Below, piece by piece: positions 14,901 through 30,452 of a DNA stretch of 30,452 nt. The notes below the pieces were generated by a model. The model searched no databases. It saw nothing but the letters and a program-made list of their open reading frames with translations, and had not been told where the DNA came from. The first letter of the stretch is position 1. Each line of letters begins with the position of its first letter. The DNA comes from a virus, in the IMG/VR virus record IMGVR_UViG_3300027797_000092, positions 1 through 30,452 of that record; one strand, 5' to 3'. The position numbers and the translations under genes are program-made.

Positions 14901-15797
14901 AGGCATAACCTTGCTGATGGTTCGTACATGAAACGTGAAAGTGTCCTTGTAAGAAAAGATTCTGGCTATGACTTTATGAAGGATGATTCGGAAAGATTTG
15001 GAAAACTTGGTAACAAAGGCATTTACCGATTCTGGAATCCAATAGAGTTTATGATTATGGCGTTTTCTGACCCATACGATACCGCCTTGCTTCGTGACAT
15101 TCCTGCGGTTGACATGGGCGACCTAGATGTTTTTGAGCGTGGTAAAAGTTCATTCCCTAAGGACCCGAATGACCCGCTTGGCAACCCCGTTCGTCCTAGT
15201 GGAGTCCGTGGACTTACTCGTTGGTTTAAGAATCTTGGCGGAGTAATCTCTCAGTACTTTGATGCCATCACTAAGTTTTATGACATTGGAAGCAAAGCAA
15301 AGACCTTGCTTGAGCAAAACGTAGAGGAGTCGCTCCGACTCATTTCTACCCATAGGGAGAAGGACATTAAGCCTCGTCAGGCAAAACCCGCCCCTCCTCC
15401 GACTCCACCTACGCCGCCACCTACGCCCCCACCTACGCCGCCACCTACGCCCCCACCTACGCCGCCGCCTACTCCTCCGCCTACGCCGCCGCCTACTCCT
15501 CCGCCTACTCCTCCGGCTCCCCCGCCTTCTCCGCCAACTCCTCCGACTCCGCCTACGCCTCCAGTCCCGACGCCTAGTCCTCTCCCCGGGCCTGTTCGTC
15601 AGCCAGCCGTTATCTGGAGGTCTTGGACCAACGATACTGCCGCAAATGGCTCCATGTGGCGTAACGGGGTAGGGTATGCTATCACCTATCTTGCAGGGCG
15701 TAAGTTCCGTCTCTACAACCCACAGAACGCACTTGTCGGCATCTACAACGACCTTGAAGAAGCCAAGCGACGAGTCCGTAGAGACGAACCAAAATGA
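5949..15797 (+). CDS. Giant polyvalent ejection protein: zincin, ADP-ribosyltransferase-like modules, GNAT
   Basis: A 3,282-residue virion protein in the gp16-like position. Residues 1-200 are acidic and helical; 215-240 and 391-441 are Gly/Ala zipper-like hydrophobic segments suited to membrane insertion. HELFH at 574-578 with Glu674/675 further on fits a metallopeptidase (HExxH zincin). About 1440-1600 holds a first ADP-ribosyltransferase-like module (His-Gly-Thr at 1452, 'KAVFFAASDE', 'DVVVIHNVMDGG'). About 1640-1910 is a divergent one ending 'GFDAVVVPD...SSPNVKASSNYGEF', and 1990-2190 a third (His-Gly-Ser at 2007, 'GFDGIIYK'). 2298-2352 is a GNAT fold with RNKGYGK at 2308. 2380-2640 is helical, and a degenerate zincin-like EEVMH lies at 2822-2826. 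A Pro/Thr tract (3147-3214) precedes a 68-residue C-terminal domain. Six copies of a Lys-Pro-(Ala/Val)-(Glu/Asp) element separate the modules. Polyvalent proteins of this type are known to enter the host with phage DNA; the targets here are unknown. Confidence 0.75.
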   Translation: MADLLRKKVVEPVQGSMFASPQQLDEEQQLLSQLTPDELKDAQDELDSPITGEELAQIMSEDTRYKPTADEYTVYKQWMKTREVDVIDAFTSGFGQVLSDLGTAVEAGWEADDKVAKALPTIFEGFARGTRDFYGMLAQSQDPNSVLFKFKNVLAGDGSDPVAEYEQFLQAREFNAISMDILGGKTSGSKELFGVEIDKDMMIPEMAQAISYIADPSLFIPGGAVGAVAKAGARAIGAGHFAASIIRAAGRVQGIKDLVMSGALRVAGAPLELIGRATSGTIDGAVARGSALFGDIIGMSPQAFHQTLQGAGLATSALRVPGWSTVSDAYYAANVIGGFGETIGAIGRQVGREQRGILSYAARALKAEAGSLTPQAKRMLQIVDAVDPLFGYAYAAGDAALEGATIGGVLGGLAGGLEGAAAGAGSGSALGAIGGVVGRGVTDIHRERTRVQADMVIEGLKDTDKNQFDSMMLLRALGQVHDKSYDHIIVGLDTVAPGARLHMHDGATFEAYLQKNKLVDRFDPDRPGRVLRGEDPANPTQYHRWEGLVVQKDKSGNTDIFINTEWARKNAIGHELFHGIMRSSVYAKNFTDAVTQSILGVRGTKGELIRAGEVPTAEAYEMFKRYIDIEYKDPAIKKAKIDQLDAAMKEFETTGGLISESGLEGRSVLENLSEEFGAYYFNHWLDDKSPDYLFFGGKLPGVRGVVDNLKMGWLSFTEARLKKSMPDFDFSRKVIDERTGKPRQEFIDEVFRRDGRRTRLSSLDFLMRDLVRAAAGINTADNLILRNMTPEQRAKFTETHGLDGLFRRDRKGGARETSEAQMRRENQTRVQGIIDTVNTIPAAERGTQTIVDVNGDTAVIGTFTDRELEVIVKNGHMSQALADKYKTIREVAAKGGKGENVLQANYWAESMEQGSGTSPGRVVNVAGEARVVPMTRRVFVPHSLETVITMTSKGEANFGVLAHSLDFDNLGRRSQAVYSQPDARTLYGNDYDSFQADFYRYLQNLSDPNAIPSADLFGGGIDGAKKRNFFHEVLGSAIKQGESYINPPRPGYAGPAGRGEFFAYQTLRIDRMSHVAVRPDIVPYDHKQVYDRTRRNYKPSELEAEQTPNGTLYKHPLGYNIISKGSMARAYDSQGNALGSFSSTDQASRAITREVKRRDKEVYGSVVRQSASEQKMFKPVDGDEAAEAVRIGDLYETEAMKKFTDGIQNIVRQTADESFEDYSRGIRNGVVTKRQAEQLVMLAENAYKGDMRIEQLEQKLDLLEKEGANGFRMARYSQPIEDIINKHFNPQNDSFVARHPMANLGGTDALLRAAKSAESPDEVLINLAFELKGTNRGMTMPRARAIANELAPHANELFNQVKMFSEADNIRKELKRPAAGERNYYKNRTNLAEQAKKVKAVREYIDTLDPEKVYDGLGRHLVDSLPLRRIYQSDVYTSQFDTGVPFVATVVHGTPNVDLLKAREMDPARGGQTTGARSAHKAVFFAASDETVLSPIYQSSPTNPDTINPDGSLKSYRMLKASIKANNPFVADMSMIPRDDKAGYLGIRGVVDEAFGKGHDVVVIHNVMDGGDFDTVFAIRNDVAKDQHRVIETTLDKEAGASPLPRGEGPDGQPMTVGTKYLKPAEGDMAPDWQSDRANAARKDQPRKLWAYPDTPQFRKWAGGLPFIKGVAQQLRPADMEKGFVTTVFKGVSQKRNFDEFGERQVKKYWDPKTGETVTRRTDQYGMNLAGRMDPNYFISEQNTAEGFADTGDMADMYYLRSEKPAVLTKLKDVSKRNPELDKVLRSFWESTVKDEFADEPEFGKGTMYEGLVEFDYNAFLKMVEEGRFLMDGPEGYDKKDVHFKGDEETIMETWGERWNKMNRFLLENGFDAVVVPDRTMNDDAPTIIADQSSPNVKASSNYGEFSRDDARYNFKPAEGDMPSGPLRDFESVKEDKKFKAFAKGTEIVDPIDDFSGPANYIEKHGEDIGSFVNFWDEMAKVWLQPNNTTSYSTMTLKKGATFLAYHGSTSKERFKFLRTDMKPEDSYWARQGSPDSAMGTHFTNDEVLATNFTLREVDADGEGFTWRVNEEAEYEKPGPQGPAGQLYAVAVRMDKPIYFSHEAQLQAEIKNAGGADKLKAKLKKEGFDGIIYKIHAEVVDQAKKVSGYPGFELTPDFANQFLKDDVYGYVPFDAKKVKDVEYNRGTFDRTKKDIRMKPAEGDLEPTGKKYDVLSKLFTSRFLGRYSKENGGILDGITIKVEYDTDTSPFDANKQDPYGMTIRIDNPWEGGGKEPIAQIGVRFEKGAKGAQFGDHAFITRVDVRSDMRNKGYGKLIYSEAGERIRSIGAEYLFGSVVNRDNIPFYIREEIFGKGSTRQPNAPGGSTITKLDPNAYYKPAEDGGQPPRNIKEFLAEQGNKFDPASLVSSIIRHRKDADDESPIYSRILDFGKNKHGQFYRLIGEKRYQEIVKSNETPARKQSLIREASSMFGGDRFSNYKDPADFNKWLGRIYDEVQFPGANEPKVEIPKPKAIDTGAFRTLLEDVESTLDSTSFTKDHTTELYGNKSGTKKGILKTAAEALEAYDKATTKEAKDVAISEIVDQVESLREILNELEDVQSNSEAFENTEGYQRREEQIEALTEAVDVLDDAIKPDDMGDAQASMKPVEGEGGPNAMVSDRGVSSPLNHTFVKIPKGESPDPTKHTFEQYLEWKSRPKNGGQIIIRDALDFIIGQGGFMSATAEMLKILVEDTKSVYRADVANRLSLLDRTVSLSKNGGQGGIENTQLPGPGSDRMQNQPMMGTLADLIDSYKKKWAGEPGGTPANSLAAQGIQGRGFEGVFFEEVMHTFHGEALRPQKSMGSSTPPGYESNASAATVRSLFVRQHGGNNVSGQQWITMKNSFINDVSVRIRNYGRQLNSNLISQFAYDAKIDGMRTEIAAARVLKVYEHALNNLEVVSRETTYDRKANVSGVVVKKTKLINLIKNKINIVDPIENMHGKSPFELGRHNLADGSYMKRESVLVRKDSGYDFMKDDSERFGKLGNKGIYRFWNPIEFMIMAFSDPYDTALLRDIPAVDMGDLDVFERGKSSFPKDPNDPLGNPVRPSGVRGLTRWFKNLGGVISQYFDAITKFYDIGSKAKTLLEQNVEESLRLISTHREKDIKPRQAKPAPPPTPPTPPPTPPPTPPPTPPPTPPPTPPPTPPPTPPPTPPAPPPSPPTPPTPPTPPVPTPSPLPGPVRQPAVIWRSWTNDTAANGSMWRNGVGYAITYLAGRKFRLYNPQNALVGIYNDLEEAKRRVRRDEPK
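15388..15585 (+). repeat. Pro/Thr-coding minisatellite (9-bp units)
   Basis: A tandem array of about twenty imperfect 9-bp units encoding Pro-Pro-Thr, with a few Ala/Ser variants near the end. It forms a stiff extended linker between the body of the giant protein and its small C-terminal domain, and is likely to vary in copy number by slippage. Confidence 0.85.
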
Positions 15798-17853: not shown

Positions 17854-18040
17854 CTGCCTCCTCAAACGTCATGGTCTTGGCTAGTTCCAACAACATTTTG
17901 TTTCGGTCGTAGATGACCTTGTAAGTACCATTATAAATAGCCCAACCAATTATACAGGAATCAAACCCGTCGGCAAACAGGAGACTTTCGTCTCCCGTCT
18001 GCTCAACGAGTTCCTTCCGGGTGTCCCGCTTTCGTCCCAT
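17744..18040 (-). CDS. Conserved small phage protein, unknown
   Basis: A 98-residue protein of a type common in phage early regions: 'LLFADGFDSCIIGWAI', then 'VIYDRNKMLLELAKTMTFEEADEYFLYNIQNAYVGDRTPVYV'. The 'aDGFD..iiG', 'YDr.km', 'eeA.Eyf.yNi..ayvG..TPv' pattern is one I know from many phage hypothetical proteins; no biochemical role is known to me. It starts at ATG 18040, inside the stop of the ERF gene (TAATG), so it is translated with ERF. Confidence 0.7.
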   Translation of the reverse strand: MGRKRDTRKELVEQTGDESLLFADGFDSCIIGWAIYNGTYKVIYDRNKMLLELAKTMTFEEADEYFLYNIQNAYVGDRTPVYVERIQRIQVDRQEAVD

Positions 18041-18780
18041 TAGAATGGAACGTCATCAGCCGGAGCATCAACCGCTTCAGCGGGGGCACCGGATGCGTTG
18101 ATGTAAAGGGCCTTGGCGGTACGCTTCAACTTAAGGTCCTTCTCGGAGACACGGCCCGTCTTTTCAAACGGACGGGGCTCCCAAGTGTTAGCCCAATAGG
18201 AAAGGTCATCCACGGTAAGTTCACCAATCTGCAAGCCCTTGCTACGGCCAAACGGCAGGACCATAGACGGGTCAATGTCCCCGGCCGGGATGGCAGTAGG
18301 GGCAGTAGGGGCGGCAGAGGTAGCCTTGGGCACGGCCCGGGCAACAGGAGCAGAGGCAGGGGCCTTAGCGGCGTATGCAGGGGCACGGGCAACACGGTCA
18401 GACTCTGCGTCGTCATCCGTGGTAGCCAGACCCGCCACGGCGGCCAAGGCATAGCGGCGAAGATAAGAGAACAAGGACCCGGCGTCCTGTCCCTTGAATC
18501 CTTCTGAAGCCACGGGAATAGTGACGTAGTTCTGGATGTAACCGCCATCCTTGTGGATGACCATGGTATTGATGCCGACCTGATTGCCGTCGCCGTGCGG
18601 GAACTGAACGATAGCCAGCCCGTGCTTGGCAAAAATACCCTTGGTCGCTTCGAGGTGAGCCCCGAGCGTGGCGTAGGTGTTCTTGTGGAACGGGTTGGTG
18701 GCGTCAGCAACGACGTCCTTGGTCTGGGCGATAGCGGCCACAAGGGCGGCCGCAAGTTCTGGGGTGATGTTGTTAATCAT
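18040..18780 (-). CDS. erf: ERF-family single-strand annealing protein with SSB-like tail
   Basis: A 246-residue protein. Residues 20-130 carry the ERF pattern: 'NPFHKNTYATLGAHLEATKGIFAKHGLAIVQFP', 'GGYIQNYVTIPV', 'GQDAGSLFSYLRRYALAAVAGLATTDDDAES'. ERF proteins anneal complementary single strands in phage recombination. Residues 133-170 are an Ala/Pro linker. Residues 173-230 form a small domain ('VLPFGRSKGLQIGELTVDDLSYWANTW') like the DUF3820-type 'PFGk.kG..l..l' unit. The last residues, DAPADDVPF, resemble the acidic tip of single-strand binding proteins that recruits partner proteins. No separate SSB gene is visible in the window. The exonuclease partner is encoded on the other strand at 22290. 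Confidence 0.85.
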   Translation of the reverse strand: MINNITPELAAALVAAIAQTKDVVADATNPFHKNTYATLGAHLEATKGIFAKHGLAIVQFPHGDGNQVGINTMVIHKDGGYIQNYVTIPVASEGFKGQDAGSLFSYLRRYALAAVAGLATTDDDAESDRVARAPAYAAKAPASAPVARAVPKATSAAPTAPTAIPAGDIDPSMVLPFGRSKGLQIGELTVDDLSYWANTWEPRPFEKTGRVSEKDLKLKRTAKALYINASGAPAEAVDAPADDVPF

Positions 18781-21685: not shown

Positions 21686-21742
21686 AATCCTTACGCTATC
21701 GGTCTTGACTTCCCTTGCAAACGCAATCTTCTCGCCGACGAT

Positions 21743-21943
21743 ATGGAAATACTCGTAATGATTGGTATATGTTTTGTGGCAGTAGGGGTTCCGATACTCA
21801 TAGGCTGTCATCTGGCGGCCCTTATCGGGCTCGGTTCATCTACCAAGCAGAACCCGCCCGGGCCACACATCAATCATCTACACAGATACTACGAACGAGA
21901 GACGGCCGTCTCTTTGTCGGCAAAAAAAGGTCGGCGAAAATAA
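21743..21943 (+). CDS. Small membrane ORF / possible RusA N-terminal frame
   Basis: A 66-residue frame. Residues 1-30 are hydrophobic ('ILVMIGICFVAVGVPILIGCHLAALIGLG'), followed by 'QNPPGPHINHLHRYYERET' and a basic end. Two readings are possible. It may be a small membrane protein overlapping the resolvase gene in another frame. Alternatively its 'PPGPHINHLHRYY' part is the missing N-terminal 'PP..N.hyR' motif of RusA, with a frameshift near 21892 joining it to 'RTRDGRLFVGKK' in the next frame. Confidence 0.35.
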   Translation: MEILVMIGICFVAVGVPILIGCHLAALIGLGSSTKQNPPGPHINHLHRYYERETAVSLSAKKGRRK

Positions 21944-22257
21944 GGCCCTTCCTTGATGCCCTAACAATGGGGGCACGGGCGATGCGACCGCCGGAGCCGT
22001 TGAGTGGCCCGGTGTGTCTGTTAATCCATTGGGCATTTCAAACTCCTATTTGCCGGGTAGGCCGGGGTAAGAAAAATTGCCACCTCGACCTCCCTTGCAC
22101 AGTCCGGCCAGACCTAGACAACGCCGCCAAGGCGGTTATCGACTGTCTCGTCAAGGCCGGATGGTTTACGAACGACGCTATTATCTCCCGGCTCTTGCTT
22201 TGCAAAACGGAAAGCAACCGACCTCGTCTTGACATACAGGCCGAAGATGACGCTTGA
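21769..22257 (+). CDS. rusA: RusA-like Holliday junction resolvase
   Basis: RusA resolves recombination and replication junctions in phage DNA. From the first in-frame ATG (21769; start uncertain) the product is 162 residues. 'VRPDLDNAAKAVIDCLVKAGWFTNDAI' contains the RusA catalytic acids (Asp115, Asp117, Asp136) and Lys121, corresponding to Asp70, Asp72, Asp91 and Lys76 of E. coli RusA. 'TRDGRLFVGKKRSAKIRPFLDAL' fits the segment before the core. The usual N-terminal 'P.PP.N..yR' motif is absent in this frame but present in the overlapping frame, so the gene may carry a frameshift. Its 3' end overlaps the -35 element of the promoter for the exonuclease gene. Confidence 0.7.
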   Translation: MFCGSRGSDTHRLSSGGPYRARFIYQAEPARATHQSSTQILRTRDGRLFVGKKRSAKIRPFLDALTMGARAMRPPEPLSGPVCLLIHWAFQTPICRVGRGKKNCHLDLPCTVRPDLDNAAKAVIDCLVKAGWFTNDAIISRLLLCKTESNRPRLDIQAEDDA

Positions 22258-22284
22258 CGGCTGAAACGAAAAGGGTATTACAAA
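22254..22284 (+). promoter_or_regulatory. Promoter for the exonuclease gene
   Basis: TTGACG at 22254-22259, then TATTACAAA at 22276-22284. The block resembles the promoters upstream of 23399, 25509, 27141 and 28619. The start codon at 22290 is only a few bases further, so the transcript would have little or no leader. Confidence 0.5.
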
Positions 22285-22289
22285 GGGCG

Positions 22290-23141
22290 ATGAATACTCC
22301 CTCCCTCACTCATTCGTTCAGCAATACCAAGGTCCATCGCAACATCCCGGACCCAGATTATCGGGCTATCAAAGCCCTCTCCAAGTCGTCGCTGACTCAT
22401 TTCTTAAAAAGCCCGGCCCACTACCTCGCCTCGACCGAGATGCCCAAGGAGACGACCGATGCGATGATGTTTGGCACGGCCTATCACGCCTATGTTCTGA
22501 CGCCGGACCGCTTCGCCGAAAACGTCGTGATGAAGCCGGAGTGGGACGCCCGCACTAAAGAGGGTAAGGCCATCAAGGCCGAGTTTGAGGCATCCCTTGG
22601 CCGCAAGGTCTACATTAACGACAAGCAACTTGACGCCATCAAGGCGATGAAGGCCGCCCTAATGGAACACAAGGTCGCCTCTAAACTTCTCGCCGGGCTG
22701 ACCGATACCGAGATGGCTATTGAATCCGACTATCACCCGATGCACCCCAAGCCGGGTAGCGTCCGCATCAAGGGGCTTCTTGACGGCTGGGACCACAACA
22801 CCGCAACCATCATAGACCTAAAAACCTGTAAGGACGCCAGCCCCGAGGGCTTTAAGTGGGCCTGTAAAGACTTCCGCTATGATATGCAAGAAGTGCAGTA
22901 TCGGGCCCTCATCAATGCCGCATTCAAAGGCGACACCCACGGCGGCGTCGACCGATTTGTTTTTATCGCCCAAGAAAAAGAGCCGCCTTATGCCGTGGCT
23001 TGTTACACCCTGTCGCACCGGACTCTGATGACCGCCTATGACGAATGGCGGGTTGCCGTTCACAACTTCGGGGAATGTCAGACGAATGCGGTTTGGCCGG
23101 GCTACGCCGCAAGTCTCGTCGAACTAGAAATCGTCCGGTGA
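22290..23141 (+). CDS. RecE-like PD-(D/E)XK exonuclease
   Basis: A 283-residue protein. 'ALSKSSLTHFLKSPAHYLAS' near the N-terminus and 'MMFGTAYHAYVLTPDRF' are the opening motifs of RecE/DUF3799-type nucleases. The active site is in 'IKGLLDGWDHNTATIIDLKTCKDAS': Asp165, then Asp176-Leu-Lys178; 'RYDMQEVQYRAL' supplies the QxxxY element. It would resect double-strand ends 5' to 3' to feed the ERF annealing protein. ATG 22290 is preferred over an in-frame TTG at 22254 because the promoter lies between them. The stop overlaps the next start (GTGA). Confidence 0.85.
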   Translation: MNTPSLTHSFSNTKVHRNIPDPDYRAIKALSKSSLTHFLKSPAHYLASTEMPKETTDAMMFGTAYHAYVLTPDRFAENVVMKPEWDARTKEGKAIKAEFEASLGRKVYINDKQLDAIKAMKAALMEHKVASKLLAGLTDTEMAIESDYHPMHPKPGSVRIKGLLDGWDHNTATIIDLKTCKDASPEGFKWACKDFRYDMQEVQYRALINAAFKGDTHGGVDRFVFIAQEKEPPYAVACYTLSHRTLMTAYDEWRVAVHNFGECQTNAVWPGYAASLVELEIVR

Positions 23142-23356
23142 AGAAAAACCTCGCCGCTGTTATCGAGGAATCGGAGGCCCGCCGCAAGGCGGCCGCCACC
23201 ATCAAGACCGAAGTCCTCCCATTAGTGGAGGGCCTCGTCATTTTGATTGAGGGCGAACTCCAGACGGCCGGGAAAAGGCGGCACAAGGAATTGACCCGCT
23301 ATGTCCAGCCCATCCGAGCAATTCAATATATCTTGCACAAGACGCTTGACGACTGA
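23138..23356 (+). CDS. Small helical protein, unknown
   Basis: A 72-residue, mostly helical basic protein ('IEESEARRKAAATIKTEVLPLVEGLVILIEGELQTAGKRRHKELTRYVQPIRAIQYIL'). The start is GTG 23138, overlapping the exonuclease stop; a longer frame from ATG 23045 runs through the exonuclease gene and is less likely. No family is recognised. Its last codons contain the -35 of the next promoter. Confidence 0.55.
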   Translation: MKKNLAAVIEESEARRKAAATIKTEVLPLVEGLVILIEGELQTAGKRRHKELTRYVQPIRAIQYILHKTLDD

Positions 23357-23375
23357 ACTAAAAGTGTAATACATT
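23346..23375 (+). promoter_or_regulatory. Promoter for the small-gene cluster
   Basis: TTGACG at 23346-23351, 15 bp, then TAATACATT at 23367-23375. A -10 of TACATT at 18 bp spacing is the alternative reading. The first start codon is at 23399. The layout matches the promoters of the GC-rich array. Confidence 0.55.
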
Positions 23376-23977: not shown

Positions 23978-24016
23978 CACCTTTTCCAACCCAAACGATA
24001 ACCCGCTATGCCCGAC
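23978..24016 (+). repeat. 39-bp direct repeat, copy 1, covering a gene start
   Basis: A perfect copy of the sequence at 24212-24250, 234 bp away. It holds the intergenic stretch CACCTTTTCCAACCC through the ATG at 24008 and the codons for Met-Pro-Asp. The repeat carries start signals, so the gene between the copies behaves like an inserted unit. Confidence 0.95.
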
Positions 24017-24235
24017 ATTAAACCTAGTTTTGACCACATTCTTCTCTACAAAGACGAGAATGGATGGCATCCGGAAAATTACGGCCCGGACAATGACCGA
24101 TTGATTCCCGTCCACGGCGACCTCGGCGACGCAATCGCCGAAGGGCAGAATTGGTCGAACGAAAAATGTATGCAAGGCCGGGCGGTCTGGCTTGTTCGTG
24201 TCGAGTTTGTTCACCTTTTCCAACCCAAACGATAA
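24008..24235 (+). CDS. Small protein, unknown (start inside 39-bp repeat)
   Basis: A 75-residue protein: 'HILLYKDENGWHPENYGPDNDRLIPVHGDLGDAIAEGQNWSNEKCMQGRAVWLVRVEFVH', a small beta-rich domain with many Trp and Asp residues. Its start is inside copy 1 of the repeat. Its last residues (LFQPKR) and stop codon are encoded by copy 2, so the C-terminus is contributed by the repeat. No family is recognised. Confidence 0.55.
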   Translation: MPDIKPSFDHILLYKDENGWHPENYGPDNDRLIPVHGDLGDAIAEGQNWSNEKCMQGRAVWLVRVEFVHLFQPKR

Positions 24236-24250
24236 CCCGCTATGCCCGAC
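24212..24250 (+). repeat. 39-bp direct repeat, copy 2, covering a gene start
   Basis: Identical to 23978-24016. It encodes the end and stop of the upstream gene, then the ATG at 24242 with Met-Pro-Asp for the next one. Confidence 0.95.
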
Positions 24251-24432: not shown

Positions 24433-24636
24433 ATGGCCAAAAAAATGTTCTCATATCTTGAAACGATTACCTTCGTCGTCGAAATCGCCGCCGAAGACCA
24501 AAAAGAGGCGATGGAGGCCGGGAGCGACTTCGTCGAAGGCATCCTTGACCACGCCGATAAAGAATCCACTCATATCACCGGGCTCCGCAGTTTTGAGATT
24601 GAGCCGATGGGCGGGCCTAATGTGGAAGAACAATAA
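24433..24636 (+). CDS. Small protein, unknown
   Basis: A 67-residue protein with a beta strand, a helix and a beta strand ('YLETITFVVEIAAEDQKEAMEAGSDFVEGILDHADKESTHITGLRSFEIEPM'). The strand-'a.d...A...a..f' pattern resembles the upstream 61-residue protein. ATG 24433 lies 5 bases after the previous stop; the frame is open further upstream but would overlap that gene. No family is recognised. Confidence 0.5.
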   Translation: MAKKMFSYLETITFVVEIAAEDQKEAMEAGSDFVEGILDHADKESTHITGLRSFEIEPMGGPNVEEQ

Positions 24637-24637
24637 G

Positions 24638-25369
24638 ATGCATTTCACAAGTGTCATTCATTTCTGGGCCGACCGGAGCCGGGTATCCGGTCCGGTGGAA
24701 GCCGCCGCCGCCGTTCGGATGGCCGTCGCCCGGGAATGCGAGGACGCCCGGGTTTATCTAGGCGAGGCCCCGGACGGGTTTTCTATGGCGGGCCTGTTTA
24801 GTGTTCGGGCCCGCAACTCCCCCCGGGCCGAGGATTCTACTTGGCTTGCATTTGCCCATCACGGCGGGGGTGACGAACTTTGCAATTATTACCACGCCGT
24901 TCGGTTGTTAGACCTAGACCTGTTGACCACATTGAATGGGTCTATCCCGGTCGAGGTTGACGCCGCCGAATTGTGCGGCAAAACATTGGAGGTTTTTAAG
25001 CCAACCCTCCCGGCGGGTTTAGAGTTGTCGGATACAATCGCCCAAGCCATTTGGGAGATTGGTAATCGGGAATATTGGGCGACTGAATTGTCCGAAGTGT
25101 TTTACGACCGATGCCAGATTGCCGACCGACGCATTAAGTCCGGGGAGGACCCGGTCGCCGCCCTCGCCGCCTATGACACATTAAACCCGGCCCTAGGTCG
25201 CCGGATGGGATTTGCTTCGTCTAGCATATTCAACGCCGACGCCCGGGAGTTATTTGCCGACGCCCCCGGGCTTCGGCGTCCGGTCCCGCCGCCGAAGCCG
25301 TCGACGGCCAAAGAAAACGCCGACTTGCATCGGGTCCTTTGGATTGCCTTCGTCGATTTCCATATCTAA
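24638..25369 (+). CDS. Hypothetical protein, 243 aa
   Basis: Begins at ATG 24638, one base after the previous stop. The protein is soluble, Ala/Asp/Arg-rich, with 'HFWADRSRVSGPVEAAAAVRMAVARECEDARVYLG', 'AFAHHGGGDELCNYYHAVRLLDLDLL' and a C-terminal Pro/Lys stretch. I do not recognise the family or a catalytic motif. GC content rises sharply from this gene on, and it is followed by an intrinsic terminator, so it closes the unit that began at the 23346 promoter. Confidence 0.55.
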   Translation: MHFTSVIHFWADRSRVSGPVEAAAAVRMAVARECEDARVYLGEAPDGFSMAGLFSVRARNSPRAEDSTWLAFAHHGGGDELCNYYHAVRLLDLDLLTTLNGSIPVEVDAAELCGKTLEVFKPTLPAGLELSDTIAQAIWEIGNREYWATELSEVFYDRCQIADRRIKSGEDPVAALAAYDTLNPALGRRMGFASSSIFNADARELFADAPGLRRPVPPPKPSTAKENADLHRVLWIAFVDFHI

Positions 25370-25426
25370 AAAGTTTTGGGGCCTACGGGCTTCGGGTGCA
25401 TAAAGAAAAGAAAGGCCGCAAGGCCG

Positions 25427-25458
25427 GGCGGGGCTTTTAATGGGGGCCCCGCCTTTTT
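25427..25458 (+). terminator. Intrinsic terminator
   Basis: An 8-bp perfect stem GGCGGGGC / GCCCCGCC around an AT-rich loop, followed by TTTTTCTTTTT. It separates the 24638 gene from the first GC-rich unit. Confidence 0.8.
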
Positions 25459-25469
25459 CTTTTTGGCCG

Positions 25470-25499
25470 TTGACATTCGCCCGGCCCTTGTAATACAAC
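25470..25499 (+). promoter_or_regulatory. Promoter, array unit 1
   Basis: TTGACA at 25470-25475, 15 bp, then TAATACAAC at 25491-25499; the -10 may be TACAAC at 18 bp spacing. Either way the transcript starts within a few bases of ATG 25509, with no room for a ribosome binding site. Confidence 0.65.
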
Positions 25500-25521
25500 G
25501 GCGGTCCTATGCATCCCGCAA
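25500..25521 (+). repeat. Conserved start block, copy 1
   Basis: A 22-bp block containing GGTCCTATGCATCCCGC, identical at 25500, 28610 and 29743. It spans the start codon and encodes Met-His-Pro-Ala. Confidence 0.95.
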
Positions 25522-26972
25522 ATAACGGCCAGCCCGCCGATAAGGGCAAATCCCCCCGCCTCCGTTCATCCTACCCGACGAAAGAAATCCCCCACTTGTG
25601 GGCCAACGGAATCCATCGTTATATCTATTCCCGGTCGTCGTCGGTTCAGATTACCCCGGATTGCACCCGCCTCATTTCCTATGCGACCGCCGTCGCCGTC
25701 CGAACCGAGGTTTTCACCGCCCAAGGCGTCCGGGTTTACCTGTTCACCTCCCGGTCTTATTCGACGACGACCTCCCGGCTTTTGTCGCAAGCCCTTGCCG
25801 CAATCCCGCACAAGGTCCACTTTGTCCGGGACGAACATTGGGACGGCCGCCGGGAAACGATTAGCGAATGCCTAGGCGTCGCCGAAGGGACCCCGGTTGA
25901 CCTCGGTTCAATTACCTTTGCCGTCCCCAATCTCGGTTCGGCCATTGGCTCCCCGGGCCGTCAATCCCACCGGGAAAACCTCGCCGCAATCGTCGACCGG
26001 GCGAAGGCCGAGGTTGCCAAGGCGTCAAAAGCCCGAGCCCGTTTTACTCCTATCCTCGCCGGGGAAATGTTCTCCCAAGCCCTTTGCTATTGGAGGACCT
26101 TCCTCGCCGACGAACCGGACCCGTTGACCGGGATTGACTTCGCCGGGATTGCGGCGGCGTTTGCCAAGTCGAAAGCCCGTCAGAATGCCGCCGAAGCCGC
26201 CGAGAGAGCCGCCCGACAGGATTACGAACGCCGGGAAGATAAGTGGATGGCCGAAGCCGCCGGAGCCCTCGGGGCGTTGGCCAAAGTGGTCCGGAAGTTT
26301 TTAGCAAACGGCGACCCGGCGACCGACGCCCGGGCGGCCGTCCTCGCCTATGAGGCCGGGCAAGAGATTGATGCCACGCCCTCGGCCGGGTTTGCGGACC
26401 TCGGCCTCGCCTTGTCTGAACTTATCCGAAAGGGCTCCGGGTCCGACGATGGCGGGGAGTTTTTTAACCTTGCCGTCAAACGAGTGAAGCCGTCGTTTAA
26501 CTTCGCCGGATATGTTTCTCCTTATCCGTTGCCCCCGGCCCGTAAGGTTTTCGGGAAAGTTATCCGGGACCACGCCCCCCGCCTTTACCGGGTCCGGGAC
26601 GCCGTCGGCCTTCCTTACCTTTCCTACGCCGAGGGCAGTAAGTTTAAACAATCGTTTGGCCGTGAACTTATCCGGGTCGTCGGGGCCGACCTCCGGACCT
26701 CATCCGGGGCGGCTGTCCCGCTTGCAATAGTCCGGGCCTTGTGGGCCCGCCACGGGGATGAGGTCCGGGCGGCGGCGGGCTTGCCTTGTGCGACTCACTT
26801 CCCGGAGGGCCGCAAGGCGTGGCTTTACACTTGGACCGGATACCAAACCGCCAACGCCCCCGCCTTCGCCTCCGGCTCCGGGTCGTCCCTGTTGGTAATC
26901 GGTTGCCACCTAGTCGGGGCCGAGGACCTTGTCCGGCTTGCCCGCCGCCTCGAGTGGCCGGACGCCGAATAA
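25509..26972 (+). CDS. Phage protein of the 'HLWAN...YSTTT' type, unknown function
   Basis: A 487-residue protein starting Met-His-Pro-Ala from the conserved start block. Residues 25-95 ('IPHLWANGIHRYIYSRSSSVQITPDCTRLISYATAVAVRT' and 'VYLFTSRSYSTTTSRLLSQAL') resemble a phage hypothetical family I recall with 'vaHlWan....yS.g.....ia' and 'YS.TT..h'. Residues 165-265 are helical with charged coiled-coil character ('AKSKARQNAAEAAERAARQDYERREDKW'). The rest is mixed, ending with 'GSGSSLLVIGCHLVGAEDLVRLARRLEWP'. The role is unknown. It has its own promoter and terminator. Confidence 0.65.
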   Translation: MHPANNGQPADKGKSPRLRSSYPTKEIPHLWANGIHRYIYSRSSSVQITPDCTRLISYATAVAVRTEVFTAQGVRVYLFTSRSYSTTTSRLLSQALAAIPHKVHFVRDEHWDGRRETISECLGVAEGTPVDLGSITFAVPNLGSAIGSPGRQSHRENLAAIVDRAKAEVAKASKARARFTPILAGEMFSQALCYWRTFLADEPDPLTGIDFAGIAAAFAKSKARQNAAEAAERAARQDYERREDKWMAEAAGALGALAKVVRKFLANGDPATDARAAVLAYEAGQEIDATPSAGFADLGLALSELIRKGSGSDDGGEFFNLAVKRVKPSFNFAGYVSPYPLPPARKVFGKVIRDHAPRLYRVRDAVGLPYLSYAEGSKFKQSFGRELIRVVGADLRTSSGAAVPLAIVRALWARHGDEVRAAAGLPCATHFPEGRKAWLYTWTGYQTANAPAFASGSGSSLLVIGCHLVGAEDLVRLARRLEWPDAE

Positions 26973-27009
26973 CCTTTCCCGGGGGACAACCTCCCGGGGA
27001 TGCATAGAC

Positions 27010-27047
27010 AAGGGGGGCGGCCGCAAGGTCGTCCCCCTTCCCTTTTT
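27010..27047 (+). terminator. Intrinsic terminator, array unit 1
   Basis: Stem AAGGGGG plus GCGGCC pairing with GGTCGT plus CCCCCTT, with a GCAA loop, followed by CCCTTTTT. A second short hairpin, CCCGGGGG / CCTCCCGGG, precedes it at about 26978-26999. Confidence 0.75.
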
Positions 27048-27101
27048 AGGGGCTAAAAGTAGGGCCGGAAAACAGGCCGAAAAAAAGGCGATTAAATTCG
27101 C

Positions 27102-27131
27102 TTGTAATCCGGCGGGACCTTGTAATACATT
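27102..27131 (+). promoter_or_regulatory. Promoter, array unit 2
   Basis: TTGTAA at 27102-27107, 15 bp, then TAATACATT at 27123-27131 (or -10 TACATT at 18 bp). It is followed by AGTCCTATGCA around the ATG at 27141, a degenerate version of the start block. Confidence 0.6.
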
Positions 27132-27140
27132 GTCAGTCCT

Positions 27141-27449
27141 ATGCAATACCGCACAAGCCCCGGCCCGGGTAATAAGGGCCGCCGCCTCGGGGCCGGACGC
27201 CCCGCCCACTCCGCAACCCTCGCCCTCGCCTTCCTCGGCCGGGGCCGCCCAAGCCGGGACAAAGCGAAGGCAACTTTCCGGGCCGTTGGCCGGGACGCCG
27301 CCATCGCCCTGCTCGCCCTCGACGACCTTGTCGCCTTCACCCGGCTGACAAGCCAAGCACCGGGCTCCCACTACTTCACCGCAAAGGCCGCATTCGCCGC
27401 CGTCCGCTTGCGTCGCCTAGTCGACGCAATTGAAGGGGGGGAAAAGTGA
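27141..27449 (+). CDS. Hypothetical protein, 102 aa
   Basis: A basic, Arg/Ala/Gly-rich protein ('GRRLGAGRPAHSATLALAFLGRGRPSRDKAKATFRAVGRDAAIALLALDDLVAFTRL', then 'FTAKAAFAAVRLRRLVDAIEGG'). The second half is helical. The N-terminus could be a flexible nucleic-acid-binding tail. It is the first gene of a four-gene unit; its stop overlaps the next GTG start. No family is recognised. Confidence 0.55.
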   Translation: MQYRTSPGPGNKGRRLGAGRPAHSATLALAFLGRGRPSRDKAKATFRAVGRDAAIALLALDDLVAFTRLTSQAPGSHYFTAKAAFAAVRLRRLVDAIEGGEK

Positions 27450-27859
27450 ACTTCCCCGTTCACTCGGCCGCCCTCTCGACGGCCGAACTCCGCCGGGCGG
27501 CGGGCTTCCTCGGCCTCGGCCTTGGCCGTTGCAACCCCGGCGACGGGGCCAAGTGGCGGGTCGGCCCGGACGCCTTAACGAAGGGCCTCAAGTCCGGCCT
27601 TGGAATTGCCGACTTCAACGCCGTCGACGGCCCGGTCCTCCGGAGCAAAGCCGAGGCGGCCGCATACCTTAACGGGTTTGCCGCCGGGCTCGACCGGGGC
27701 CTCCCGGTTTACCGCCTTCGGGTTGCCCTATCCCTCGCCCTCGACGCCCTCGGCCACCCGGACCCGGTCCCGGTGTCTATGGCCGCCGACCTCATCCGGG
27801 AGGCGTTTGACCTCATCCCGGTTCACCCGGTCGTCGGATTAAGGGGGGAAGTAAAATGA
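27446..27859 (+). CDS. Hypothetical protein, 137 aa
   Basis: Starts at GTG 27446 (GTGA overlap), preceded by a G-run that could serve as a ribosome binding site. It is an Ala/Leu/Asp-rich helical protein: 'LSTAELRRAAGFLGLGLGRCNPGDGAKWRVGPDALTKGLKSG', 'YRLRVALSLALDALGHPDPVPVSMAADLIREAFDLIPVHP'. Unlike the first genes of the units, it lacks the MHPA start. The family is not recognised. Confidence 0.55.
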   Translation: MNFPVHSAALSTAELRRAAGFLGLGLGRCNPGDGAKWRVGPDALTKGLKSGLGIADFNAVDGPVLRSKAEAAAYLNGFAAGLDRGLPVYRLRVALSLALDALGHPDPVPVSMAADLIREAFDLIPVHPVVGLRGEVK

Positions 27860-28401
27860 ACCCCTCCGGCTTTATCTACTTCGCCGACCTCTTTTGCCCG
27901 GCTTGTTCGGACGGGCTCCCGGACCGGGACCCGGAGGGCGGCCACAAGGGCCCGTTTTATTCGATTCAAGAATCGGACGCCCCTTGCAACTGTGGCAAAT
28001 GCGGGGCCTTCATCCCGTCGACCTTAACGGATTACGGGGCCCGGGAATTGGCAACCCGCATCCGGGAAGCAAATAACGCCCTCCCGGAGCCCTTGCCCCC
28101 GGCCCTCGCCGAGTGGGCCGAGTTTCACAAGTGGGCCGAAGGCGTGGGCGACGCCCTCGCCGAACGGACGGCATTTGAGGACAGTCCGACAGTTATCATC
28201 CGGGGCTTTGTCTACCCCCTTGCGAACCCTCAACGCCTCGCCCTCATCCGGCTTGCGGCCCGTTGGAAAGTCGACCTAGTCGACTTAATAACCGGGGCGT
28301 GGCCCGAGGTCGGCAACCCGGCGACGGCTTGCCTAATGGTTTCCATACCGGGCAAGGGCATTGTCATTGGAATTGAAAAGGACGGCTATTCTCACTCCTA
28401 A
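27856..28401 (+). CDS. Hypothetical protein with N-terminal Cys-rich (zinc-ribbon-like) motif
   Basis: A 181-residue protein. Near the N-terminus 'LFCPACSDGLPDR' and then 'APCNCGKCGAFIP' give Cys-x2-Cys and Cys-x-Cys-x2-Cys, a likely zinc ribbon. The rest is mixed, ending in a beta-rich part ('TACLMVSIPGKGIVIGIEKDGY'). ATG 27856 overlaps the previous stop and follows an A/G-rich stretch that could act as a ribosome binding site. A nucleic-acid-binding role is possible but unproven. Confidence 0.55.
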   Translation: MNPSGFIYFADLFCPACSDGLPDRDPEGGHKGPFYSIQESDAPCNCGKCGAFIPSTLTDYGARELATRIREANNALPEPLPPALAEWAEFHKWAEGVGDALAERTAFEDSPTVIIRGFVYPLANPQRLALIRLAARWKVDLVDLITGAWPEVGNPATACLMVSIPGKGIVIGIEKDGYSHS

Positions 28402-28533
28402 ATGACCGCCGCCCTTTACTTCCTCGCCCGGCTCTTTTGGCGGGTCGGCCTCCGGGACCTATCCGGTCGCCTTGCCTACCGGGCTTGGCTCCGGCAAGTC
28501 CGGGACCGGGGCGGTCCGTCCGTCCGGGATTAA
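28402..28533 (+). CDS. 43-residue basic protein
   Basis: A short frame starting directly after the previous stop (TAAATG). It begins MTAALYFLARLFWRVGLRD and continues with Arg/Trp/Gly-rich residues, ending PSVRD. The amphipathic basic N-terminal helix might associate with membranes. It is followed by the terminator of this unit, which supports it as the last gene. Confidence 0.4.
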   Translation: MTAALYFLARLFWRVGLRDLSGRLAYRAWLRQVRDRGGPSVRD

Positions 28534-28541
28534 TCTCCCCT

Positions 28542-28572
28542 AGCCCTCGGCCACCCGGCCGGGGGCTTTTTG
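28542..28572 (+). terminator. Intrinsic terminator, array unit 2
   Basis: Stem AGCCCTCGGCC / GGCCGGGGGCT (one G-T pair), followed by TTTTTG. The next promoter begins 8 bases later. Confidence 0.8.
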
Positions 28573-28579
28573 TTTCCTC

Positions 28580-28609
28580 TTGACCTCGACACCTAGGCCG
28601 TATTACAAC
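28580..28609 (+). promoter_or_regulatory. Promoter, array unit 3
   Basis: TTGACC at 28580-28585, 15 bp, then TATTACAAC at 28601-28609, followed directly by the 22-bp start block. Confidence 0.6.
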
Positions 28610-28631
28610 GGCGGTCCTATGCATCCCGCAA
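28610..28631 (+). repeat. Conserved start block, copy 2
   Basis: Identical 22 bp to 25500-25521, with the start codon at 28619. Confidence 0.95.
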
Positions 28632-29503
28632 CCCCGGACGATAATCCCGCCGCCCCGTCCACGGCCCGCCCCCACCTCGACAACCTCGCCGCCGCCCTCG
28701 GCGTCCGGGTTCACCTCGGCTCCGGTCCTTACGACCTCGCCGTCCCGGTTCTCGACTTCCTCCGGTCGGACCTTTACCGGACTGTCCCCGGCGACATTAC
28801 CTTCAACCGGGGCCTCGACGCCCTCCGGGAAGCCGTCGCCCGGGCCGCCTTCCTCGCCGACGGGCTCGACGAAAATGGCAAGCGTTGGCTTGCGGTCGAC
28901 GCCGAGGTAAACCTCCAATTCTATAACTTTAAGGAGTGGGCCCTCGACGGCCAACCTCGGGAGCCGTGGCAGGAAGCCGCCCTCGCCGGGGCTTTTGTCG
29001 GCTTCCTCGCCCGGGAGGTCCGGGCCGCCGCCCGTATCCGGGACATTTATTGCACCGGGGCCGCCGTCCTCGATTGCGGCAACCCCTCCGGCTTCCCGTC
29101 CGTTACCCGGGTCTTACTTGCCGAAAAGGGCGAACCGGATGAGGCCCTCCCGGCGTCGCCCCCGGCCCGTTACCTTTCCGTTTATTCGCACGAGGTCCTC
29201 AACGGCGGCCCGGAGGAAGGCGGTTGGACTTGGCATAAAAAAATCCTCCGGGCGACTTTCGCCCTCCCGGAGCCGACTGACAACTTCGACCCGGCCGCCG
29301 CCCCGGCCGAATTGATTGCCGTCGCCCGGGCCGCCGCCGACGCCCTCGGCTTAACCCTCCCCGGCGACTCCGTCCCCACCCGGGACGGCGGGACCCGTCC
29401 GGCCCGTCCGGCTTCCTCTTGTGCCCCGGAGGTCGACGGGGTCCTAGTCGTCGAGCCCTTCCCCGGGTCGGATAACTGCACCGCCCCGGACCCGTGGGAA
29501 TAA
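28619..29503 (+). CDS. Hypothetical protein, 294 aa (MHPA start)
   Basis: Begins Met-His-Pro-Ala from the start block and continues with a Pro/Asp-rich segment. The body is Ala/Leu/Asp-rich ('LDNLAAALGVRVHLGSGPYDLAVPVLDFLRSDLYR', 'RWLAVDAEVNLQFYNFKEWALDG', 'YLSVYSHEVLNGGPEEGGWTWHKKILRATFALP'). I see no catalytic signature and do not recognise a family. After the first four residues there is no resemblance to the other MHPA proteins. A frame open from a TTG at 28580 overlaps the promoter and is not used. Confidence 0.55.
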   Translation: MHPATPDDNPAAPSTARPHLDNLAAALGVRVHLGSGPYDLAVPVLDFLRSDLYRTVPGDITFNRGLDALREAVARAAFLADGLDENGKRWLAVDAEVNLQFYNFKEWALDGQPREPWQEAALAGAFVGFLAREVRAAARIRDIYCTGAAVLDCGNPSGFPSVTRVLLAEKGEPDEALPASPPARYLSVYSHEVLNGGPEEGGWTWHKKILRATFALPEPTDNFDPAAAPAELIAVARAAADALGLTLPGDSVPTRDGGTRPARPASSCAPEVDGVLVVEPFPGSDNCTAPDPWE

Positions 29504-29528
29504 CCCCGGCCCCCTAGGCCCTCAACCT

Positions 29529-29553
29529 GCCCCCGGACCTCCGGGGGCTTTTT
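29529..29553 (+). terminator. Intrinsic terminator, repeated copy A
   Basis: A 9-bp perfect stem GCCCCCGGA / TCCGGGGGC and TTTTT. A 33-bp stretch starting here (to TGTGCCCGG) is identical to that at 30343. Confidence 0.9.
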
Positions 29554-29563
29554 GTGCCCGGAC

Positions 29564-29619
29564 GGCCAAACCGGGCTTTTAGCCCTCCCCGGCCGAAAAA
29601 ACCCCCTCGAGGTTTGGCC
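29564..29619. repeat. Inverted repeat in the intergenic region
   Basis: GGCCAAACC at 29564-29572 and GGTTTGGCC at 29611-29619 are perfect inverted 9-mers about 38 bp apart, within the 248-bp gap 29504-29751. The rest of that gap holds a terminator, C/T-rich sequence and a promoter; no gene is seen there. Confidence 0.6.
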
Positions 29620-29713
29620 CTCCGGCCGTTTGACCGGGTGACCCGAACCCTACCCCTCCCCCTTTTCCGGTCCTCGCCCCGGGCCTATGCCTGGTGCCTT
29701 TAACGGATAGGGC

Positions 29714-29741
29714 TTGACCTTAACCCCGGCCCCGGTTTGAT
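29714..29741 (+). promoter_or_regulatory. Weak promoter, array unit 4
   Basis: TTGACC at 29714-29719, with a poor -10 (TTTGAT at 29736-29741, 16 bp spacing). It lacks the TAATACA block of units 1-3 but is followed by the identical start block. Confidence 0.4.
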
Positions 29742-29742
29742 G

Positions 29743-29764
29743 GGCGGTCCTATGCATCCCGCAA
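29743..29764 (+). repeat. Conserved start block, copy 3
   Basis: Identical 22 bp to 25500-25521, with the start codon at 29752. Confidence 0.95.
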
Positions 29765-30312
29765 TCCCGGGCTCCCCCGCCGCCTCGCCCTCGGCCTCAA
29801 CCGCAACCCCCCCGCCCGGATGGGCGGCCGTCGCCTCCCGGTTAACCTTCGCCCTTAACTCCCGGGCGTTTGGGACCGCCGAGGAAGGCCCGGCCTTTCG
29901 GGACGCCGTCGCCGCCGTTATAGACCTCGGCCGGGTCTATGCCGACGCCCTCGCCGAAGTCGACCGGGCCCTCGCCGCCCGGGAGTGGGAAGCCGAGGAA
30001 GCCGTCGCCGTGGCCGAGGCCCGCCTTCGCCTTGCCCGGGACGCCCGGTGCGACTTCATCCGGGCGGTCGGCTTTGCCGCCCAAGAGGGCGAGGCCCCGG
30101 CCAATCCGGCCGCCCGGTTTGAGGACCTTGCCGACCATAACCCGGCGGTCGGGCTCCTATTGAACCAATCCCTCGCCCTCGACCTCGGCCGGGAATTGAT
30201 GGCCGCCGACTTCTCCCTCGGGCAAACGACCTCCGGCTGTCCCGGCCGCCGGGCAATCGCCCACGCCGCCGGGGCTCTCCGGCTTACCCGTCGCCCCCGC
30301 CCCCCGGCCTAA
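29752..30312 (+). CDS. Hypothetical protein, 186 aa (MHPA start)
   Basis: Begins Met-His-Pro-Ala, followed by a Pro/Ser/Ala/Thr low-complexity stretch (to about residue 25). The body is strongly helical and Ala/Glu/Arg-rich ('VIDLGRVYADALAEVDRALAAREWEAEEAVAVAEARLRLARDARCDFIRAVGF'), likely a coiled coil, ending in a basic Pro/Arg tail. No family is recognised. ATG 29752 lies in the start block; an upstream TTG/ATG pair at 29737-29740 is less likely. Confidence 0.5.
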   Translation: MHPAIPGSPAASPSASTATPPPGWAAVASRLTFALNSRAFGTAEEGPAFRDAVAAVIDLGRVYADALAEVDRALAAREWEAEEAVAVAEARLRLARDARCDFIRAVGFAAQEGEAPANPAARFEDLADHNPAVGLLLNQSLALDLGRELMAADFSLGQTTSGCPGRRAIAHAAGALRLTRRPRPPA

Positions 30313-30342
30313 CACCGGACACCGGACAAACCGCCCCACCTC

Positions 30343-30367
30343 GCCCCCGGACCTCCGGGGGCTTTTT
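30343..30367 (+). terminator. Intrinsic terminator, repeated copy B
   Basis: The same 9-bp stem and T-run as 29529-29553, within a 33-bp identical stretch. Confidence 0.9.
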
Positions 30368-30410
30368 GTGCCCGGGCTCCCGTTCACTTTGCGCTGATAG
30401 CGGATGAGGA

Positions 30411-30439
30411 TTGACACCGGGACAAGGCCCGGCTTGGCT
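30411..30439 (+). promoter_or_regulatory. Possible promoter, array unit 5
   Basis: TTGACA at 30411-30416; the -10 is poor (TTGGCT at 30434-30439, 17 bp). It is placed like the other array promoters, just before TCGGTCCTATGC at the window end. Confidence 0.4.
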
Positions 30440-30448
30440 GTCGGTCCT

Positions 30449-30452
30449 ATGC
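30449..30452 (+). CDS. Start of a fifth array gene, cut by the window edge
   Basis: The final bases GGTCCTATGC match the conserved start block up to the edge, so a further unit begins here with ATG at 30449. Its coding content is outside the window. Confidence 0.5.

Follow-up and report, generated by a model that had tools for sequence, protein, structure and literature searches.

Two described systems come closest to the locus we report here. PeSLs are composite motifs of T4-like phages that join an early promoter to a stem-loop terminator (Arbiol 2010; Comeau 2014, both through the account in PMC4503421). As that account presents them, they are repeated intergenic terminator-promoter modules between non-essential genes, and gene content is shuffled between the modules. 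The start-associated sequence (SAS) of cluster K mycobacteriophages is a 13-bp sequence, GGGATAGGAGCCC, which contains AGGAG and lies 3–7 bp upstream of the start (PMC3203893). A role in translation initiation was proposed for it, and gene exchange at the sites was not reported in that paper (PMC3203893).

Our locus shares features with both. Its block, like SAS/ESAS elements, is short and recurs where non-structural genes of different families begin, within a single genome and in one orientation, and the extended part of those elements also comes in subcluster-specific versions (PMC3203893). The block found here differs in that it lacks GGGATAGGAGCCC, reaches through the ATG to codon 4 and is mostly without a Shine-Dalgarno core. 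Compared with the PeSLs as outlined in PMC4503421, each gap likewise holds a hairpin and a TTGAC-type box (a predicted promoter). Gene content differs at the modules in one close relative (L032) and in two further clades (B and D), although homology breaks in clade B are also enriched at starts without a block. Set against the same account, our phage is not T4-like (about 42.5 kb; closest annotated TerL from Phage C75C1, 31.7%), its repeat extends over the start codon into the opening codons of the gene, and the repeated sequence is lineage-specific. Ordinary phage mosaicism also places gene replacement joints near gene starts, but at our locus the joints carry a repeated sequence, and inserted genes have conserved copies of it on either side. 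SAS and PeSLs each cover one half of the arrangement; what is new is that they are combined, that the repeat extends across the start codon and that its sequence is replaced from lineage to lineage. The initial annotation of this DNA knew of no described system with this structure; this is wrong, as PeSL cassettes and the cluster K sequences are closely similar in logic.

The window, by which we mean the whole stretch of DNA that was analysed, is the complete virus record IMGVR_UViG_3300027797_000092 (IMG/VR) of 30,452 bp. A related contig, L005, overlaps both of its ends (30323–30452 at 99% and 1–315 at 96%), which lets the two records be combined into a genome of approximately 42.5 kb, and several relatives are of similar length (41–44 kb). 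The array consists of five units, U1 to U5, and is followed by a C-rich non-coding stretch, a small HTH-like gene and the terminase. G+C climbs from about 0.50 to 0.70 along the array (24500–30452), with a growing negative GC skew, and the non-coding stretch after it (5525–6100 in L004) is very C-rich.

All of the units are on the forward strand. A terminator-like hairpin at 25426..25459, found by the consensus scan and placed by reading the sequence, precedes the unit 1 module at 25470..25521, which reads TTGACA, TAATACAAC, and then GGCGGTCCT running at the start codon into ATGCATCCCGCAA. The U1 gene (25509..26972) encodes 487 aa with orthologues at 62% in L004 and 47% in L007, and the next hairpin lies at 27010..27046. 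Unit 2 has a diverged module at 27102..27154 (TTGTAA, TAATACATT, and GTCAGTCCT running into ATGCAATACCGCA) ahead of an operon at 27141..28533 whose four genes overlap or follow one another closely (27141–27449, 27446–27859, 27856–28401 and 28402–28533), where the block is found at the first gene only. After the hairpin at 28542..28576 comes the unit 3 module at 28580..28631 (TTGACC, TATTACAAC, GGCGGTCCT and ATGCATCCCGCAA) with the U3 gene at 28619..29503 (294 aa, unrecognised, L004 orthologue 68%). A hairpin at 29529..29553 separates it from the unit 4 module at 29714..29764, which has TTGACC, a weak −10 and the same GGCGGTCCT and ATGCATCCCGCAA; the U4 gene at 29752..30312 (186 aa, unrecognised) has orthologues in L004 (70%) and L006. 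Past the hairpin at 30343..30367, the unit 5 module at 30411..30452 is cut by the contig end, and it continues in L005 with the full block and the U5 gene. The hairpins after units 1 and 2 come from the consensus scan, and those after units 3 and 4 from the consensus scan and the repeat comparison.

The repeated block is GGCGGTCCTATGCATCCCGCAA, 22 nt that read identically at 25500, 28610 and 29743; written around the start it is GGTCCT followed by ATGCATCCCGCA. Its 17-mer GGTCCTATGCATCCCGC is exact at 25503, 28613 and 29746, where chance would give 0.08 matches with up to 3 mismatches and none of 100 shuffles reached three. Diverged copies are CAGTCCTATGCAATACCGCA at 27132 in unit 2 (ATG at 27141) and CGGTCCTATGC at the right edge (30442–30452). 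The copies first reported for this block are thus confirmed, three identical and two diverged. Only three other IMG/VR records contain the block. Matches to GTCCTATG inside other genes, including the terminase, are due to chance, and repeats in L077 and L078 that we considered as start blocks are terminators that happen to contain ATG.

A promoter had been proposed for every unit. A TTGAC/TTGNA box (TTGTA in U2) lies 32–33 nt ahead of GGTCC, or of its equivalent AGTCC in U2, in all five units. A TA(A/T)TACA box, 18 nt ahead of the ATG, is present in units 1–3 only. We base the predicted array promoters on spacing and conservation, because the −10 boxes of U4 and U5 are poor and a generic sigma-70 scan lists 0 of the 5. 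The same kind of box occurs elsewhere: CTTGAC-N15-TATTACAA at 22253..22290 on the forward strand, resembling units 1 and 3, stands before the exonuclease gene without a start block, a related promoter-like box lies at 23346–23375, and in L007 three further genes, located outside the array and mostly lacking the block, have the same promoter shape in front of them. From the spacing, transcription would be expected to start near GGTCC, in which case the message would begin with the block. A terminator had likewise been proposed after each complete unit: every intergenic gap has a hairpin with a T-run, and the 42 nt around those after U3 and U4 (copies at 29520 and 30334) are 90% identical. We rely on position and on this copy identity, because the hairpin scan as a whole found 12 where shuffled sequence gave 13.3, which is no excess.

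The initial annotation described the proteins behind the block as unrelated and unrecognised, and both descriptions hold. Profile comparison of the array proteins without their first 10 residues gave no homology among them (probability at most 2%), while orthologues between genomes are 47–82% identical. None of them matched Pfam or PADLOC. U1 has a single match, to PHROG 7247 (E=6e-13, function unassigned), and none in annotated phages; its predicted structure, from three sequences, has a mean pLDDT of 39.5.

The block is conserved at the level of nucleotides. Among orthologues in close relatives whose TerL proteins are 92–94% identical, the −35 box is 94.5% identical, positions −9 to 0 are 91% and positions 0 to +12 (codons 1–4) are 97%, compared with about 78% for the gene bodies. 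Wherever a block has Ala at codon 4 (all MxPA starts), the codon is GCA, which makes up only 5–7% of the Ala codons in array genes, where GCC makes up 77–86%. In U2 the letters CCGCA are retained in a different frame and the protein starts MQYRT. The fixed rare GCA and the out-of-frame CCGCA therefore point to constraint on the nucleotides. An open RNA start does not account for the rare codons, as they do not raise openness, and the start region is predicted to be no more open than other stretches (0.46 vs 0.43 unpaired).

Protein-based scans for further arrays of the window clade returned only L004, L005, L006 and L007. The initial annotation had set gene capture against the case of relatives with matching genes and gene order behind an ordinarily diverging block; genes and order are indeed the same in L004, L006 and L007, but divergence in the block is far below that of ordinary sequence. 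Since these nearest relatives share both genes and order, the array of the window itself is not undergoing rapid shuffling, and it is syntenic in all of the window-clade genomes seen except L032. In L032 (TerL 87%) the start block (1034–1097) and the terminator (1921–1973) at the U5 position are homologous to those of the window clade, and the gene between them is unrelated. When the U5 genes of L005 and L004 are compared, the block and codons 1–15 are shared and the C-terminal part is conserved too, but the middle has been replaced. The boundary of this exchange is 46 nt beyond the ATG, not at the block.

A TerL search gave 397 relatives, of which we fetched 80. Repeats anchored on start codons occupy the same locus with different blocks in different lineages, and some relatives show none. 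In clade B the block is AAATCCTAACTACAAAAATCCT directly followed by ATG; it often holds the stop of the preceding gene and sits in gaps of 14–30 nt with no evident promoter. Seven gene families are variously combined behind it. With letters that denote families within this one comparison, the block-led gene orders are g,h,D,E in L036, C,E in L055, a,G,H,I in L061, x,C,(G),J in L062 and C,D,J in L081. Clade D has a related module, TTGACA and further on CACCACGCAT directly before ATG, ahead of 14–16 genes, and L105 differs from L053 by one extra gene set between two copies of the module. The block of L084 is AACCCACAACCACA followed by ATGAAAA. In these sister clades, genes flanked by the block of their own lineage have been gained, lost or recombined in different orders. 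The earlier claim that different coding sequences stand behind one 5' module is thus borne out, and gene content in relatives changes at the module, in L032 as well as in the sister clades. One block-led gene of clade D is ArdC-like (ArdcN E=6e-21, plus a zincin-like peptidase domain), which suggests that the locus may house anti-defence genes. We found no TerL relative in bacterial genome contigs that could indicate a host, and no host is given for the closest annotated phage.

We counted where DNA homology between relatives ends. Taking both directions of related pairs, so that the counts are not independent, and with a conserved block that by itself attracts alignment ends, homology ended within 20 nt of block ATGs at 20/62 in clade B (5.1 expected) and at 14/60 in clade D (3.1 expected), and no random-position run reached either count. 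As a control we used non-block gene starts outside the array. In clade D these gave 6/84 against 4.3 expected, with no such enrichment, whereas in clade B they gave 28/145 against 7.1, approximately fourfold, so general mosaicism at gene boundaries could explain the clade B breakpoints. The idea of gene capture by recombination at the block is therefore only partly upheld: content does differ at the modules, but clade B breaks also fall at gene starts that have no block. Gene turnover takes place at the modules, and the repeat may be what causes it.

The window has candidates for such an exchange. An ERF-family single-strand annealing recombinase is encoded at 18040..18780 on the reverse strand (PF04404, E=3.7e-16) and is the candidate agent of short-homology exchange; ERF was present in 9/9 relatives searched. 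On the forward strand are a RusA-like Holliday junction resolvase at 21715..22257 (PF05866, E=5e-13) and a PD-(D/E)XK exonuclease, similar to exonuclease VIII, at 22290..23141 (PHROG 412, E=2.7e-62; PF12684, E=6e-28). Proteins of the ERF, exonuclease and RusA types are able to join short homologies. There is also a second repeat that crosses a start codon, unrelated to the array block: CACCTTTTCCAACCCAAACGATAACCCGCT running into ATGCCCGAC, 39 nt, exact at 23978..24016 and 24212..24250 on the forward strand, with the gene 24008–24235 between. Its first copy is non-coding upstream of the ATG, and in its second the first part forms the end and the stop codon of that gene. A repeat that flanks a gene and changes its reading context from copy to copy fits copying by recombination. 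One 88,287-bp contig among the relatives (L082/L110/L111) contains two distinct ERF genes and has roughly double the usual genome length, and for these two reasons may be two joined phage genomes.

We think it probable, with somewhat better than even confidence, that a composite terminator-promoter-start module drives the accessory genes and also offers homology for the exchange of cassettes. The gap between genes in this tailed phage would then hold the terminator of the previous unit, a host-type promoter (TTGAC, then a −10 like TATTACAA in most units), followed by a brief conserved start region, from near the expected transcription start, through the ATG, as far as the first codons. The module would chiefly serve to have accessory genes expressed as separate insulated units, probably early, and the start region may serve transcription start, translation initiation or the binding of a regulator. 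Since the modules are near-identical between units they offer homology for gene exchange, by which genes could be inserted, deleted or replaced through the phage's ERF/exonuclease recombination. The module itself, its selective conservation as nucleotides, its lineage-specific versions and the gene-content differences at modules are observed.

The block may instead be purely an expression signal, a start-associated sequence kept by selection as a phage-regulator site or a non-standard translation-initiation signal, with turnover being ordinary mosaicism in which new genes need the signal. We regard this as possible though on balance unlikely. The nucleotide constraint across the start codon, the conserved gene order in the closest relatives and the clade B breaks at block-free starts all agree with it, published start-associated sequences were interpreted likewise (PMC3203893), and GGAGG in some copies (L004 U2, L007 U1, L032) makes a ribosome-binding role plausible. 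However, Shine-Dalgarno sequences are absent from most copies and from all clade B and D blocks, the RNA of the start region has no greater predicted openness than other stretches, the enrichment in clade D is confined to block starts, and exact direct repeats around whole genes (the 39 nt at 24008–24235, the extra gene of L105) resemble copying. A further reading, which we hold to be doubtful, gives every lineage a start-address sequence of its own, together with a factor that reads it and is replaced along with it; a gene would then have to join the local address to be taken up and expressed, and the block would be both the exchange joint and a lineage barrier to gene flow.

If one ancestral promoter-gene unit had been duplicated in tandem and had diverged, the block would be all that is still recognisable of the paralogy. 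The N-terminal tails of U1, U3, U4 and U5 are similar in composition (MHPA, then rich in P/A/S/G/N/D) and the terminator and spacer copies are also similar, but the profile comparison largely refutes paralogy of proteins whose orthologues remain so recognisable, and L032 has an unrelated gene behind the same block, so we find this improbable. Even less credible to us is that MHPA is an N-terminal tag, for example for virion packaging or injection, on different proteins: MHPA or M(H/Q/P)PA is conserved in U1, U3, U4, U5 and L032, but the identity extends upstream of the ATG, the rare GCA is fixed, U2 has the same DNA letters out of frame, and clade B blocks stop at the ATG with unrelated N-termini beyond. 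Gain and loss of genes bounded by one short repeat would also suit an integron-type cassette system with a dedicated site-specific recombinase that recognises the block. The block is wholly different between lineages, however, no excised or inverted form was seen, and the replication-region proteins scanned include no recombinase besides ERF, exonuclease and RusA, which leaves this explanation with hardly any weight.

The composite module bears on the open question of how phages acquire new small genes and have them expressed immediately. Within one uncultivated phage family, several lineages each have their own fixed start-associated sequence at the same locus. The family thus offers a comparative system in which recombination at repeats can be told apart from selection for expression. 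The block, in turn, can serve as a DNA handle for finding more possible anti-defence genes.

Two other features of these genomes are worth recording. A single gene at 5949–15797 in the window encodes 3282 aa, with a proline repeat, PPTPPPTPP, near the C-terminus; its first 1017 residues have no Pfam match. Some short palindromes are missing altogether: positions 1–24000 have zero GCGC, CGCG, GATC and AGCT (94–104 expected of each), and the array (25401–30452) additionally lacks CATG, GTAC and ACGT (16 expected of each), which occur 84, 62 and 67 times in the rest of the genome. Relatives lack other sets, with L032 avoiding CCGG and being rich in GCGC, and L061 and L053 being (nearly) without seven or eight 4-bp palindromes. 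This absence resembles restriction-site avoidance, and in the window it is wider in the array.
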